Source: Thermoproteota archaeon (GTDB taxonomy: Archaea; Korarchaeota; Korarchaeia; Korarchaeales; Korarchaeaceae). Taken from it: 41,439 nt of DNA. Numbering within the stretch: position 1 is the stretch's first letter; the number at the start of each line of letters is the position of its first letter. Below are positions 23,592 through 41,439 of the stretch, in pieces. The position numbers were made by a program, and so were the translations under genes. The notes beneath the pieces are model-generated. The model saw only the letters and a list, made by a program, of their open reading frames with translations. It did no database searches and had not been told where the DNA came from. Location: NCBI GenBank assembly GCA_027491395.1, contig JAOZFI010000023.1, positions 1 to 41,439 on the forward strand, written 5' to 3'.

Positions 23592-26156
23592 GTGATGAAG
23601 CTCCAGTATAATTTGGTTCCATTCCTCTTGATGTTGATAGTGCTCCTCCCCACTTCGATCCAGAGAAGGGCTCTCGCGTTGGACGATTGCAGTATAGAGA
23701 TAACTAGAACCTCCCCGAGCAGACTCCCCCAAGCGACCAAGCCGGGCGAGATCATCGTAAAATTCTGGTTTGATTTGACGACAAGCGATCCTCAGAACAC
23801 TCAACTGAGTGTGGAGGCCTCCGGAAGCAACATAGATGTTCTTTCTAAGACGATTTCCATGAGTACGAGGAGCGGAAGCGTCAGGATTTACGTGCACACG
23901 AAAGCCGGGGAGCGGGCTAGCCTTATCATAAAGGTGACCTGCAGGGTTAATGGAGTCACCGACACTGACAGCAAGGATATGGGGAACTCTTACATCGTAT
24001 ACATACCCCCCTCATGGTCTCCATCCATAACTCCTAGGGAGATCAGCAAGAGGGATGAGATCGCCCTAAAGGTTGACCGGCTGAACGATGTGGACGATGG
24101 TGTGGGCGAGTTATTCGTCACAGCCAAGCTGGGATCGTCTACCTACAGGCTCAGGAGGGTATCTAGGGGACTCTACAGGTCGGAAGTGGGTGTTAACTTT
24201 GTGGACTCGCCCTCCGGTACTAGGGAGATCACCTTCACCGTCACCAAATCCTATAGTGGGGTCACTGCCGTGTCTAGGAAGGACTCCACAGTGAGAGTGC
24301 TAGGTGAGCCACCCTCCGTAAACTTCACCCCACCAACACAAGTCTACAGGGGAGATGTGCTCAGGGTGGTTGTTTCCGAGAATGATGGAGACTCTCTGAC
24401 GGGCGCTCTAACCGCATTCGGGAGAGAGTATACGCTGGAAAGGGGAGAGAACCTGATAGAGGTTCCCAGGGACATCGAAGCCGGTCAGCATCAGATGGAG
24501 GCTACCGTGGAGGACGTGGACGGGAGCAGCTCCGGTAGTTGGACCTTAGAGATCTTGAATGTGCCTCCTCAGGTTGAGATATCGCTGGATAGGGATATGG
24601 CGATTCCCGGGGATACTGTAAACGTTCAAGTCTCGGTGGAGGATGATTCTCCAGGCACGAATGTTCGATTGATAGTGACGGGAGAGGGGCTCAGGAACGA
24701 GTTCGAGATGGGTGAGAATGGAGGTTCCCTAGAGTTTAGGATCCCTGAAGGATTCTCTGGAGAGCTCACATTCACCGCCAACGCGGTCGATAGGGACGGT
24801 GAATCTTCAACCTCAACTGAAAGTATCACTGTGGGAGTACCTCCCTCGATATCGGGGGAAATTCCCAGTACGGTTCACAGGGGTGAGGAGTATACCGTGG
24901 ATGTTCAGGGGGATGATGTCGGTGGTTATCTGGATTTCATGGGGGAGAGGATCTCGATAAACGGAGCAGGGGTTTACAGGTTAGTTATTCCAAGAGATGT
25001 GAGGGCTGGCGATTATGTGGTATCTGCATACGTGACTAGTCCATTTGGGGGGGTCTCCGAGAGATGGAATGTGTTGCTGGAGAACAGGCCCCCCACAGTG
25101 GATATCGACGTAAATCCAAGCGAGGCGTCTCCCGGGGAGACTGTAGTCGTTAGCGCGAGCTACTCGGATGATGCTCCGGGACTCAGAACGACCCTTTACA
25201 TCGATGGGAGAGCCATTCAATTGCCTGGGTCAAGTTCGGCTGAGGATGTTGAGTTCACAGTACCTGAGGGGAAGGATTCTATCGAGATCTCCATCGAGGC
25301 AGTAGATATGGATGGGGCGGTGGCTAGGGACTCTGCGGTTTTGGTGGTCAGTAATGTGGGTCAAGATGGAGGCAGTGGGTCTGATGAGGACGGTAACGGA
25401 ACAGGTGATGGGTCAAGCGACTCCATGAATACTACTACGGGGAGCAGCGATACGGGGGGATCCGGACATGATGGAGAGGGAGTTAACGATATCCAAGAGG
25501 TAGATGATGTCAGGGACCAGTCTGGAGATTTCATCAGTAATGTCGAATCTAGGACCGAGAAATCTCAGGAATCAACCGAAGAACTGCCTGAAGCATCTCA
25601 ACTTCACTCTAACGTGGGAAACTCGGGATCCGAAAATGGTACGTCAAATATCACGGGCCATAAGGGGACCTTCTCCGTTACTGTAGTGCCGAGCAATCCG
25701 GAGGTGGGAGATGACGTGAGCGTTACCGCGACACCTCACGGAGTTAGGGGGAGTGTATGGATTGTGGATCCCAGTGGCACCACTGTGAAGGAGGTTCCAG
25801 TCAGAAATAGAACGACCTTTCACTTCACCGTTCGTAAGGAAGGCATCTGGCATGTGAGATGGGCTTACTTGGCTGGAGGTGAGACCCTATTCGGCCATAT
25901 GGAGTTAAATGTCACGGCTCCTAGGGAAGGCAACATACTTCATCGAACAAACATGTATCGCGAACTTCCGTCCAGCGAAAATGTATCTAGATTAACCGAT
26001 CATGTTAGAAACAATAGGGGAGAGATAAACCCATTCAGACCTTCATGCCGTGTTCTGAGGAGAGATCGCTCGAGATCTTGGGATATAGAGATTGTGATCG
26101 CGATAATGGCAGTCTCCCTAGCTGGGATGCTGGTAATCAGGAGGAGGATATCTTGA
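23592..26156 (+). CDS. Large surface protein with Ig-like repeats and C-terminal anchor
   Basis: An 854-residue secreted protein. A signal peptide (about 1-29, hydrophobic core LVPFLLMLIVLLP) is followed by about five Ig/cadherin-like beta domains (about 30-590). These show a repeated pattern of PPSV or PPQVEI opening, GDTVNVQVSVEDDSPG-type strand and AVDRDGESSTSTE-type strand. A Gly/Ser/Asp/Asn linker follows (about 592-690), then one more beta domain (about 690-780), and a single membrane helix IVIAIMAVSLAGMLVI before a short RRRIS tail. It is likely an extended cell-surface or adhesive protein. The start is GTG 23592 or ATG 23595. Its stop overlaps the next gene by 4 bp, tying it to the secretion ATPase operon. 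Confidence 0.82.
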   Translation: MMKLQYNLVPFLLMLIVLLPTSIQRRALALDDCSIEITRTSPSRLPQATKPGEIIVKFWFDLTTSDPQNTQLSVEASGSNIDVLSKTISMSTRSGSVRIYVHTKAGERASLIIKVTCRVNGVTDTDSKDMGNSYIVYIPPSWSPSITPREISKRDEIALKVDRLNDVDDGVGELFVTAKLGSSTYRLRRVSRGLYRSEVGVNFVDSPSGTREITFTVTKSYSGVTAVSRKDSTVRVLGEPPSVNFTPPTQVYRGDVLRVVVSENDGDSLTGALTAFGREYTLERGENLIEVPRDIEAGQHQMEATVEDVDGSSSGSWTLEILNVPPQVEISLDRDMAIPGDTVNVQVSVEDDSPGTNVRLIVTGEGLRNEFEMGENGGSLEFRIPEGFSGELTFTANAVDRDGESSTSTESITVGVPPSISGEIPSTVHRGEEYTVDVQGDDVGGYLDFMGERISINGAGVYRLVIPRDVRAGDYVVSAYVTSPFGGVSERWNVLLENRPPTVDIDVNPSEASPGETVVVSASYSDDAPGLRTTLYIDGRAIQLPGSSSAEDVEFTVPEGKDSIEISIEAVDMDGAVARDSAVLVVSNVGQDGGSGSDEDGNGTGDGSSDSMNTTTGSSDTGGSGHDGEGVNDIQEVDDVRDQSGDFISNVESRTEKSQESTEELPEASQLHSNVGNSGSENGTSNITGHKGTFSVTVVPSNPEVGDDVSVTATPHGVRGSVWIVDPSGTTVKEVPVRNRTTFHFTVRKEGIWHVRWAYLAGGETLFGHMELNVTAPREGNILHRTNMYRELPSSENVSRLTDHVRNNRGEINPFRPSCRVLRRDRSRSWDIEIVIAIMAVSLAGMLVIRRRIS

Positions 26157-38193: not shown

Positions 38194-39828
38194 ATGTCGT
38201 TACCCTACAACAAGTTCGTCAGCGTTGAGGAGGCCCTCTCTCACGTCCCGGATGGATCGGTGGTAGCTATATCCGGTTTCAACATGGCCACAACTCCGGA
38301 ATACCTGATAATGAAGCTGTGGGAGAGATACAGGGACACGGGCCATCCCAAGGACCTCTTCATAATATCTGACACGCTCCCGGCCACCCCCAACAGGGCC
38401 CTCGACTTCGTGGCCAAGAGGGTTTACGAGGAGGAGGGTCAGGAGTTCATCAGGGGGATGCTCCTCCCATTCACTGGATGGGCACCCTATGTTCAGAAGT
38501 TGGCCATGGAGAACAGGGTAGAGCTCTATTCATGGTCCATAGGGATGGCCGCCTACTGGTTCAGGGAGGTGGCCTCGGGTAGGCCAGGTCTCCTGACTTC
38601 CATAGGCAGAGGGACCTTCCTCGATCCCAGGCAGGACGGTGGTGCGATGAACGATCTGGCTCGGGAGAGAAGGACCTGCCGCGTTTCCCTCATAGAGATA
38701 GATGGTGAGGAGTACCTGTTCTACGAAGCTCCAAAGCCTAACGTTTCCATGATCAGGGGAACTACGGCTGATGAGATGGGAAACATAACAATGGAGAAGG
38801 AGGGCATATTTGGGACCGTGCTGGCCATCGCTCAAGCTGCGAAGGCCCAGCCGAACCCGGGGATAGTGATCGCCCAAGTCGAGAGGGAGGCGAGGTTCGG
38901 CTCCCTGAACCCGAAGGATGTCCACATACCGGGACCCTTGGTGGACTTCTTGGTCGTGGCTCCTCCCCAGTACCACTGGCAGAGCGGGACCATCATGTAC
39001 GATCCCCGAATAAGCGGGACCATCATCCCACCGATAACTCCCAACCTGCTTCCAAAGATGGAGCTGAATGAGAGGAAGGTCGTCGCGAGAAGGATAGCTT
39101 TGGAGATGGTAAAGCTCGTGAACAAGAAAGGTGGCCCGATCCTCGTGAACCTGGGTATAGGCATCCCGGCCATGGTCACCAACGTCGCTGCTGAGGAGGG
39201 GATCTCAGATTACATCGTGACTACCATAGAGTCCGGACCTTGGGGCGGGCTGGCCCTGATGGGGGAGGACTTCGGTGTCTCCATAGGTCCCTTCGCCATA
39301 ATACCGATGCCAGACATGTTCACCAACTATGAGGGCGGAATAATAGACGCTGCTTCTCTGGGATTCATGCAGATAGACAAGGAGGGAAACGTCAACCCGT
39401 CTATGCTCCCCAACAGAATGCCCGGCCCGGGTGGTTTTACAGTGATAGCCGCCGGATCCCCGAGGGTTTTCTTCGGCGGAGGATTCACGGCCGGTAAGAA
39501 GAAGCTGAAGGTTGAGGAGGGGAAGCTTCGCATAGAGATGGACGGTAATGTGATCAAATTCGTTGATAACGTCTACAAGATAGTCTTCAACGGGAAGGTT
39601 GCCTTGGAGGAGGGCAAGGAGGTGCTCTACATAACGGAGAGAGCGGTGTTCAGGCTGACCGATAGAGGGCTGGTGCTCGAGGAGGTGGCGCCCGGCATTG
39701 ACTTGGATAGGGATCTGCTATCCAAGATGGAGTTCAAACCGGTAATAGCAGGCGATCTCAGGGAGATGGATCCGAGAATATTCAGGGAGGGTAAGATAGG
39801 GCTGAAAGACGAAATAAAGAGGGGATGA
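38194..39828 (+). CDS. Class I CoA-transferase, fused alpha-beta (YdiF/PCT-like)
   Basis: It swaps CoA between short-chain acyl-CoA and a free acid. The 544-residue chain joins both subunits: the alpha-like half (1-290, with DGSVVAISGFNMATTPEYLI near the start) and the beta-like half (295-530, with LVNLGIGIPAMVTN and catalytic Glu346 in TTIESGPWGG). This matches the fused acetate/propionate CoA-transferases such as YdiF (catalytic Glu near 333). Candidate substrates are acetate, propionate or a fermentation acid; none can be fixed from sequence. It is divergent from the cyclodeaminase-family gene and convergent with the surface protein gene. Confidence 0.9.
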   Translation: MSLPYNKFVSVEEALSHVPDGSVVAISGFNMATTPEYLIMKLWERYRDTGHPKDLFIISDTLPATPNRALDFVAKRVYEEEGQEFIRGMLLPFTGWAPYVQKLAMENRVELYSWSIGMAAYWFREVASGRPGLLTSIGRGTFLDPRQDGGAMNDLARERRTCRVSLIEIDGEEYLFYEAPKPNVSMIRGTTADEMGNITMEKEGIFGTVLAIAQAAKAQPNPGIVIAQVEREARFGSLNPKDVHIPGPLVDFLVVAPPQYHWQSGTIMYDPRISGTIIPPITPNLLPKMELNERKVVARRIALEMVKLVNKKGGPILVNLGIGIPAMVTNVAAEEGISDYIVTTIESGPWGGLALMGEDFGVSIGPFAIIPMPDMFTNYEGGIIDAASLGFMQIDKEGNVNPSMLPNRMPGPGGFTVIAAGSPRVFFGGGFTAGKKKLKVEEGKLRIEMDGNVIKFVDNVYKIVFNGKVALEEGKEVLYITERAVFRLTDRGLVLEEVAPGIDLDRDLLSKMEFKPVIAGDLREMDPRIFREGKIGLKDEIKRG

Positions 39829-39837
39829 GTGGATGGT

Positions 39838-41439
39838 TTAAGGGAGCTCCCTCTTTAGCACTGGTGGGGGGGCTTCCCTTATCAACCTCGCGTCGAAACC
39901 TCTCCTTTTGAGTTCCTTAAGCAGCCCCTCCCTGCCAGTGTATATCGGTATGTCCTCCCTGTCCGCTAGACCCAAAGCGGCCGAAAGCTCCTCATCAGCT
40001 CCCTTCACGACTATCTTTCTCTTAGGGGCTTTCTCGACCTTTATAGCCCTGTCAACTATGAGCTTCTCTATAGAAGACATAAGGGCTTGGTCCTTGCTTA
40101 GCTTATTGAAGGTCTCCATGGGTATCAGTATCTCGTGGTCTTGGACTAGGTCGTCGAGTACACCCCTCCTCACTGCCCACTTCAGCGCCTCGTAATCCAT
40201 CACTATCCTCTTGACCCTTTCCCTCCTTCTCACCGCCAGCAGGAAGGGGATCAGTGCAAAGGGGATTAGTATCACCCACCACGGGATTGACGGGAGGGAC
40301 GGCAGTTCTATGCTGAAGGTGGGTGGTGGAGCAACCCCTCTCTGGGCGGGACTGAACTTCACCTCCACCTTGACGCTCTTCCCGTACTTGGGCAGGGAGA
40401 CCAGCACGCTACCGCTGGTAGACTCCTCATCAGCCGGCGATACCTCAAACATTACGGTGGCCGTGCCGCCCTTTGAAATTGAGACCTGCCATTCCAGCAC
40501 GTTTCCACTCACTTTGGGGGGTGAGGCCATTCCCCCTATTCTAGAGCTTCCCTGCACGTATCTGAGCGATGGGTCCAAATTCACCAGTATCTTGACGGAC
40601 CTCGCCCCGGTCGGGCTTGATACAGTTACCCTTATGCGGCTGTTACCTCCAGAGTTGCTAGCGGATGCCCTAAGGTCGACCACCTCGGGCGGCGGGGCCG
40701 GCGGTTTCGGTTGGGCGGGTTTAGACTTGGGCTTCACCGATATCAATACGCTATCAGATGAGGAGTCGGCCCTAGCTACCACGTTGAAGCTGCCGGATGT
40801 AGCCAGCAATTCAGCCCTGAAGCTGACCTCGACGGCCTTACCCGGATCCAAGGCCCCAATCTCCCACGTTAGCCTGTTATTCTCGTTATCTGGCTCCCTT
40901 CGGAGACCTCCGACCATGGAGGTGCCTTTCACGTAGTCCAAGCCGCTTGTGAGGTCTACTGTGAGGGAGAGATCCTTGGATGGACCATCCCCTATGTTGC
41001 TCACCCTGGCCACGAACGTGATGGGCGTTCCTGTCTCAGCTGATGTCGGTGTGGCCATCAGCTCGACCACCACCAAGGGAGGACTGGTTACCCCAGCCAC
41101 TCCAGATACCCCGTTTTCGCTCCCGCTCTGCGAAGTGGGGGTATTCCCTCTGGATCCTGATCCCGTTTCGGAGCTACCCTGCCCTCTATAAGAGTAGGAG
41201 ATTCCTTGGGATCCTAATGACACAAAGACTATTGGAGGGCTGGTTAGCCTGTAGTTATGCGTTTCTTCCCCATTACTCTGGGGGGCTTGGTCCTCTACGT
41301 CATTGTTCGGGGGTATCCAGCCGCACGGTGGCGGAGTTCTCCTGCGGGTAGACCCACCGATGTTACCACCACTGTCGGGAGGCGGTGGAGGCGGTGGGTC
41401 TCTCACGAGCACGGAGGCAGATGCCATGAAGGAATCGTT
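39838..41439 (-). CDS. Surface protein with DUF11-like repeats, one membrane helix and cytoplasmic PIN-like domain (partial)
   Basis: The frame is open through the right edge (534 codons visible), so the N terminus and probable signal peptide lie outside the window; the ATG at 41427 is probably internal. Outside part: a Pro/Gly/Ser-rich stretch and two DUF11-like beta domains, each with the mark DYVKGTSMVGG or RYVQGSSRIGG and a following LTWEIGALDPG or LEWQVSISKGG strand. A Pro-rich hinge leads to the membrane helix WWVILIPFALIPFLLA, then a basic RRRERVKR stop. The last about 120 residues resemble a PIN nuclease fold: VMDYEAL, ILIPMETFNKL, GADEELSAALGLAD and IPIYTGREGLLKEL. The fourth acidic site appears to be lost (TGRE in place of TxD). 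Confidence 0.72.
   Translation of the reverse strand, partial: NDSFMASASVLVRDPPPPPPPDSGGNIGGSTRRRTPPPCGWIPPNNDVEDQAPQSNGEETHNYRLTSPPIVFVSLGSQGISYSYRGQGSSETGSGSRGNTPTSQSGSENGVSGVAGVTSPPLVVVELMATPTSAETGTPITFVARVSNIGDGPSKDLSLTVDLTSGLDYVKGTSMVGGLRREPDNENNRLTWEIGALDPGKAVEVSFRAELLATSGSFNVVARADSSSDSVLISVKPKSKPAQPKPPAPPPEVVDLRASASNSGGNSRIRVTVSSPTGARSVKILVNLDPSLRYVQGSSRIGGMASPPKVSGNVLEWQVSISKGGTATVMFEVSPADEESTSGSVLVSLPKYGKSVKVEVKFSPAQRGVAPPPTFSIELPSLPSIPWWVILIPFALIPFLLAVRRRERVKRIVMDYEALKWAVRRGVLDDLVQDHEILIPMETFNKLSKDQALMSSIEKLIVDRAIKVEKAPKRKIVVKGADEELSAALGLADREDIPIYTGREGLLKELKRRGFDARLIREAPPPVLKRELP

Follow-up and report, generated by a model that had tools for sequence, protein, structure and literature searches.

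To our knowledge, little has been established about how the surface proteins of archaea connect to the cell interior, and most of these proteins stop a few residues past their membrane helix. Among PIN-fold structures, 3ix7 is presumably a membrane PIN-TRAM protein of the YacL/TTHA0540 type, the PIN domain of which we take to contain the canonical acids. Of the four canonical acids, one lies in the middle of alpha3 and the others begin helices alpha1, alpha5 and alpha6 (PMC5895043). Utp23 (PMC5895043) and SMG5 (PMC8233366) are known cases of PIN domains that have lost catalysis and serve other functions.

The window analysed here is an entire contig of 41,439 nucleotides (G000:C62) from the genome of a korarchaeote, the end of which interrupts a minus-strand open frame (Table 1). 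From the letters of the DNA, the original prediction had read this frame as a surface protein with DUF11-like ectodomain, a single helix with a basic stop and a PIN-like domain carrying TGRE at its last acidic site. The DUF11 match and the helix, with the basic residues that follow it, bear out the first two elements, CARDB being also matched in the Pfam search; the TGRE reading is correct for the window tail, and the PIN-like domain agrees with both the predicted topology and the structural matches described below. The architecture as a whole is considered near certain. Another surface protein of the window, with 854 aa (23592-26156, + strand), stops directly past its membrane helix (RRRIS), which means that the PIN tail is not general among the surface proteins of this organism.

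Table 1. Coordinates of the window gene, its parts and neighbour, and of tailed surface proteins elsewhere (positions preceded by L refer to the named locus, all others to the window).
Feature	Coordinates	Strand	Basis or remark
Type I membrane surface protein, C-terminal 533 residues plus stop, lacking the 5' end	39838..41439	-	full-length orthologues 1258-1320 aa
End of preceding DUF11-type domain and Pro/Ser/Gly-rich linker; lowest conservation in the protein	41068..41439	-	orthologue comparison
DUF11 domain, Pfam PF01345, residues 125-229	40753..41067	-	E=6e-11
Final diverged DUF11-like domain, about residues 250-365 (probable)	40345..40692	-	alignment; position and pattern
Lone transmembrane helix WWVILIPFALIPFLLAV, residues about 387-403, followed by RRRERVK	40231..40281	-	hydropathy
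Cytoplasmic putative pseudo-PIN tail, 130 residues, up to the stop codon	39841..40230	-	AF2, Foldseek, hhalign, profile searches
Canonical PIN D1 position, Asp (VMDY), 14/14 orthologues	40195..40197	-	alignment
Canonical E2 position, Lys in mid alpha3 (ETFNKL), invariant in 14/14	40102..40104	-	hhalign and alignment
Canonical D4 position, Arg (TGRE); R/E/N/D in orthologues	39931..39933	-	alignment
Convergent downstream neighbour, 544-aa CoA-transferase-like gene, beside 13/14 orthologues	38194..39828	+	product named from sequence, without family search
Giant Korarchaeota surface proteins sharing the putative pseudo-PIN tail, 2546-3264 aa	L073:1125-10898	-	
	L042:8924-18715	-	
	L081:646-8283	+	
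	L078:1198-9207	-	
	L082:870-9464	-	
Tailed surface proteins of the second phylum	L169:1-1842	+	
	L173:1495-3321	-	
	L176:1-1830	+	
	L156:137-1993	-	
	L166-L168; L172; L175		

Orthologues of the gene with 36-93% identity were found in the source bin and in 12 further congeneric genomes, and 14 sequences were compared. Their full-length frames add a signal peptide, a Beta_helix/NosD region (E=3e-23) and two further DUF11 domains, so that the complete layout consists of signal peptide, beta-helix, four DUF11-type domains (three significant copies and one diverged in L003), the Pro/Ser/Gly linker, the transmembrane helix and the tail, with an ectodomain of about 1180 aa and nothing after the PIN fold. 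A gene boundary between the helix and the C-terminal domain, which would speak against a fusion, is absent from every orthologue, the tail being in frame with the helix in all 14 sequences. Moreover, N-glycosylation sequons number 23-36 per full-length ectodomain and 0 or 1 per tail, in agreement with an outside/inside topology. The gene order is likewise conserved: in 12 of the 14 cases the upstream neighbour is a topoisomerase-like gene in divergent orientation, and in 13 the downstream one is the convergent CoA-transferase-like gene; no partner gene or operon was found when the 14 neighbourhoods were compared, and the conserved order indicates a vertically inherited single-gene unit.

A second copy, which includes the 5' part, lies on contig C34 of the source bin (L003) and is 89% identical; at the DNA level the two versions of the locus (window positions 38695-41439) share 90% identity. 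Its interpretation as a paralogue was rejected, since C34 carries the CoA-transferase gene in the same overlapping place and matches genome G008 with 95.5% identity along 6 kb. The bin thus holds two strains, and the copy represents this locus in the second of them. The recovery of the missing N terminus, suggested with the original prediction, was achieved through the full-length orthologues and not for the window allele itself, for which the search of its own genome gave only C34.

As regards the fold of the tail, an AlphaFold2 (AF2) model built with 18 homologues (mean pLDDT 81, about 90 in the core) has the order of secondary-structure elements b-a-a-b-a-a-b-a-b-a-b, which is the PIN topology. 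The comparison of this model with PIN proteins, also proposed at the outset, pointed to PIN and not to an unrelated fold: in Foldseek searches of the PDB almost all of the first 28 ranks were PIN domains, with TM scores of about 0.5-0.61, including SSO1118, 3ix7, VapC-like proteins from Pyrococcus and Pyrobaculum and PIN domains of the SSU processome. Furthermore, hhalign of the pooled tails with the canonical PINs of Korarchaeota gave E=4e-6 to 6e-6 and a probability of 85-87%, with less than 1% for reversed PIN profiles as control, and tail profiles run on 394 archaeal genomes retrieved, from outside the Korarchaeota, stand-alone DUF3368, NOB1-like and VapC-like PIN proteins, the DUF3368 ones being among the best matches. 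On the predicted topology and the profile homology, the tail is assigned to the PIN-fold superfamily.

When the window protein was scanned with Pfam and NCBIfam, nothing significant came up in the last 130 residues, and the same was true when the tail was compared with Pfam and with PDB sequences. Neither the protein nor the tail gave a hit to Pfam PIN (PF01850) above its gathering threshold, the best relative having E=0.18. Matches to methionine aminopeptidase (E=0.14) and, in one paralogue, to TbsP_N (E=0.001, below its cut-off) were set aside as chance or generic alpha/beta similarity. The C-terminal extension of DUF3368 proteins is absent from the window tail. The arrangement is not that of VapBC, the tail being fused to a surface protein with no small gene conserved alongside, and the window protein does not have the YacL-type layout, in which TRAM follows PIN and there is no ectodomain.

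The original suspicion that the PIN might be inactive probably holds well beyond the TGRE site, as three of the four canonical acids are lost. In the window tail D1 alone is kept, E2, D3 and D4 being replaced by K, L and R, and across the 14 orthologous tails the Asp at D1 and the Lys at E2 are accompanied by Leu, Ile or Val at D3 (14/14) and by variable residues at D4. Other acids are conserved nearby, namely D47 (14/14), D/E79 (14/14) and E101 (13/14), and sit one turn or one residue off the canonical positions; they leave room for a rearranged metal site, which would be unlikely. In 10 of 11 pairs the tail has a dN/dS of 0.04-0.22, the eleventh pair, a very close one, having 0.42, and this indicates purifying selection rather than decay. 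By its sequence, then, the tail is to be regarded as a putative pseudo-PIN under purifying selection.

The search for the same fusion in other archaea, which had been recommended as a check, revealed it in many surface proteins of two phyla. Across the Korarchaeota (29 genomes in the collection searched), the transmembrane helix, basic stop and PIN-like tail end giant surface proteins of 862-3328 aa, such as those of 3258 aa in the source genome itself (G000:C61), 2546 aa in G010, 3206 aa in G018, 2670 aa in G026 and 2865 aa in G016. Several paralogue tails have just 95-104 aa and apparently stop after beta4, without the last PIN helix and strand; even so, the Thr...Asp motif of alpha3 is preserved in them, and D1-Tyr as well. 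Tails of this kind would make an unlikely nuclease and fit a non-catalytic role. As a separate observation on this group, the PF01850 search gave 36 PIN-family matches in the source genome, compared with 4-6 in certain similarly sized congeners, and the VapC load would appear to vary strongly within the genus.

In the second phylum, that of genomes G040 and G344, at least 10 surface proteins carry the helix, an RKKK motif and a PIN-like tail. The AF2 model of one such tail has a pLDDT of 91, and its first six Foldseek matches are PIN domains, with non-PIN alpha/beta folds close behind. Some of these tails may be active nucleases: L176 has two in tandem and keeps D1, E2 and D3, while those of L169 and L173 keep D1, D3 and D4. 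Among the genomes searched, tail-profile matches in long frames are almost confined to the two phyla; in other phyla the matches are mostly frames of 120-210 aa, and the ones inspected are stand-alone PINs. The fusion arose once or twice, both being compatible with the data. The ectodomains of L166-L168 are Cys-rich, with repeats of the type CSDGvkNqeEtDVDCGGpC, a repeat that received no Pfam name in the two second-phylum members scanned (L157 and L162).

The explanation that accounts best for the whole, and to which we give about an even chance, is that of a single-pass surface protein with a non-catalytic cytoplasmic PIN-fold module that anchors or organises it. A nuclease domain would have been reused as a non-catalytic module, in which the Asp at D1 probably lies opposite the invariant Lys at E2, a salt bridge taking the place of the metal site. 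Because PIN domains commonly dimerise, the tail would most likely dimerise or dock on a cytoplasmic partner and, in so doing, could anchor, cluster or position the tall surface protein. It counts against this explanation that the gene is isolated between divergent and convergent neighbours and that its context points to no partner; the acids conserved beside the canonical positions, and the second-phylum tails that retain three of the four, likewise weigh against it. With a confidence slightly short of even, the same can be extended to a general archaeal class of PIN-tailed surface proteins, in which a nuclease fold would have been recruited as cytoplasmic tail of surface-layer-like proteins in at least two phyla. 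At one end of the class would stand those tails of the second phylum, some of them tandem, that retain three catalytic acids out of four, and at the other the fully dead tails of the Korarchaeota; the class would link the envelope to a cytoplasmic partner or to RNA.

Several other explanations were weighed against this one. That assembly or gene calling wrongly merged a surface gene with an adjacent PIN gene could be suspected, given a MAG contig that breaks off within the gene and a bin with two strains, but is refuted, since the fusion is also present in 13 other genomes, including the one-contig, 99%-complete G010, and in a second phylum. It is very improbable that the tail has remained a nuclease, with D12, D47, D/E79 and E101 forming a rearranged active site: the invariant Lys at E2, the hydrophobic residue at D3, the variable D4 and the Korarchaeota paralogue tails apparently devoid of the last helix and strand all oppose it, although the four acids are conserved near the canonical positions in 13-14 of the 14 sequences and three canonical acids persist in L176, L169 and L173 of the second phylum.

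In another reading the tail would bind RNA or ribosomes but not cut, and would hold the mRNA or the translation complex of very long secreted proteins at the membrane, a role suited to an RNA-handling fold with a net charge of +4 to +11 in the tail, and for which Utp23, a degenerate PIN that works with snoRNA (PMC5895043), would be a model. This reading is held to be unlikely; the positive charge may merely reflect the positive-inside rule near the membrane. It is also doubtful that the protein is a transmembrane receptor, in which a ligand at the beta-helix or the DUF11 stalk alters the PIN-like tail and, through it, a cytoplasmic effector. The conservation of the tail in a protein that crosses the membrane once, and its presence behind several different ectodomains, would be in keeping with such a role, but no known signalling partner is encoded nearby, DUF11 stalks are usually structural and there is no catalytic output; no evidence supports the part of sensor assigned in the original prediction.

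The non-catalytic PIN-fold module remains the preferred reading, and its interest is twofold. A folded, conserved cytoplasmic domain common to many otherwise different giant surface proteins offers a handle on their cytoplasmic partner, and a nuclease fold that is common in toxins has apparently become a component of the cell envelope. The original prediction of a new architecture stands insofar as no description of PIN-tailed surface proteins was met in the literature searched, which did not extend to the main PIN classification and the Korarchaeum genome papers, so that a prior mention is possible; it does not stand as a feature of this gene alone, given its recurrence in two phyla.

When compared with known systems, the protein shares with archaeal DUF11/beta-helix surface proteins the signal peptide, beta-helix, DUF11 stalk and C-terminal membrane helix, but these usually stop shortly past the helix, as does the 854-aa protein of the window, whereas here a folded tail of 130 aa follows. 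With the PIN superfamily (VapC/PF01850, DUF3368 PINs, NOB1/PF17146) the tail has in common the fold, the order of elements, the D1 closing strand 1 and the profile homology, and it differs in the loss of three of the four catalytic positions, in remaining below the Pfam threshold, in its fusion to a surface protein and in having no antitoxin. The YacL/TTHA0540-type proteins, with 3ix7 among the best Foldseek matches, are also membrane proteins with a PIN domain that faces the cytoplasm, but they have no large extracellular region and possess the TRAM domain that the window protein lacks. Finally, SMG5 and Utp23 of eukaryotes resemble it as functional PIN folds without catalytic residues and differ in being soluble factors of RNA decay or ribosome assembly, not membrane proteins. 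In sum, the tail varies a known fold, and it is the setting that is new.
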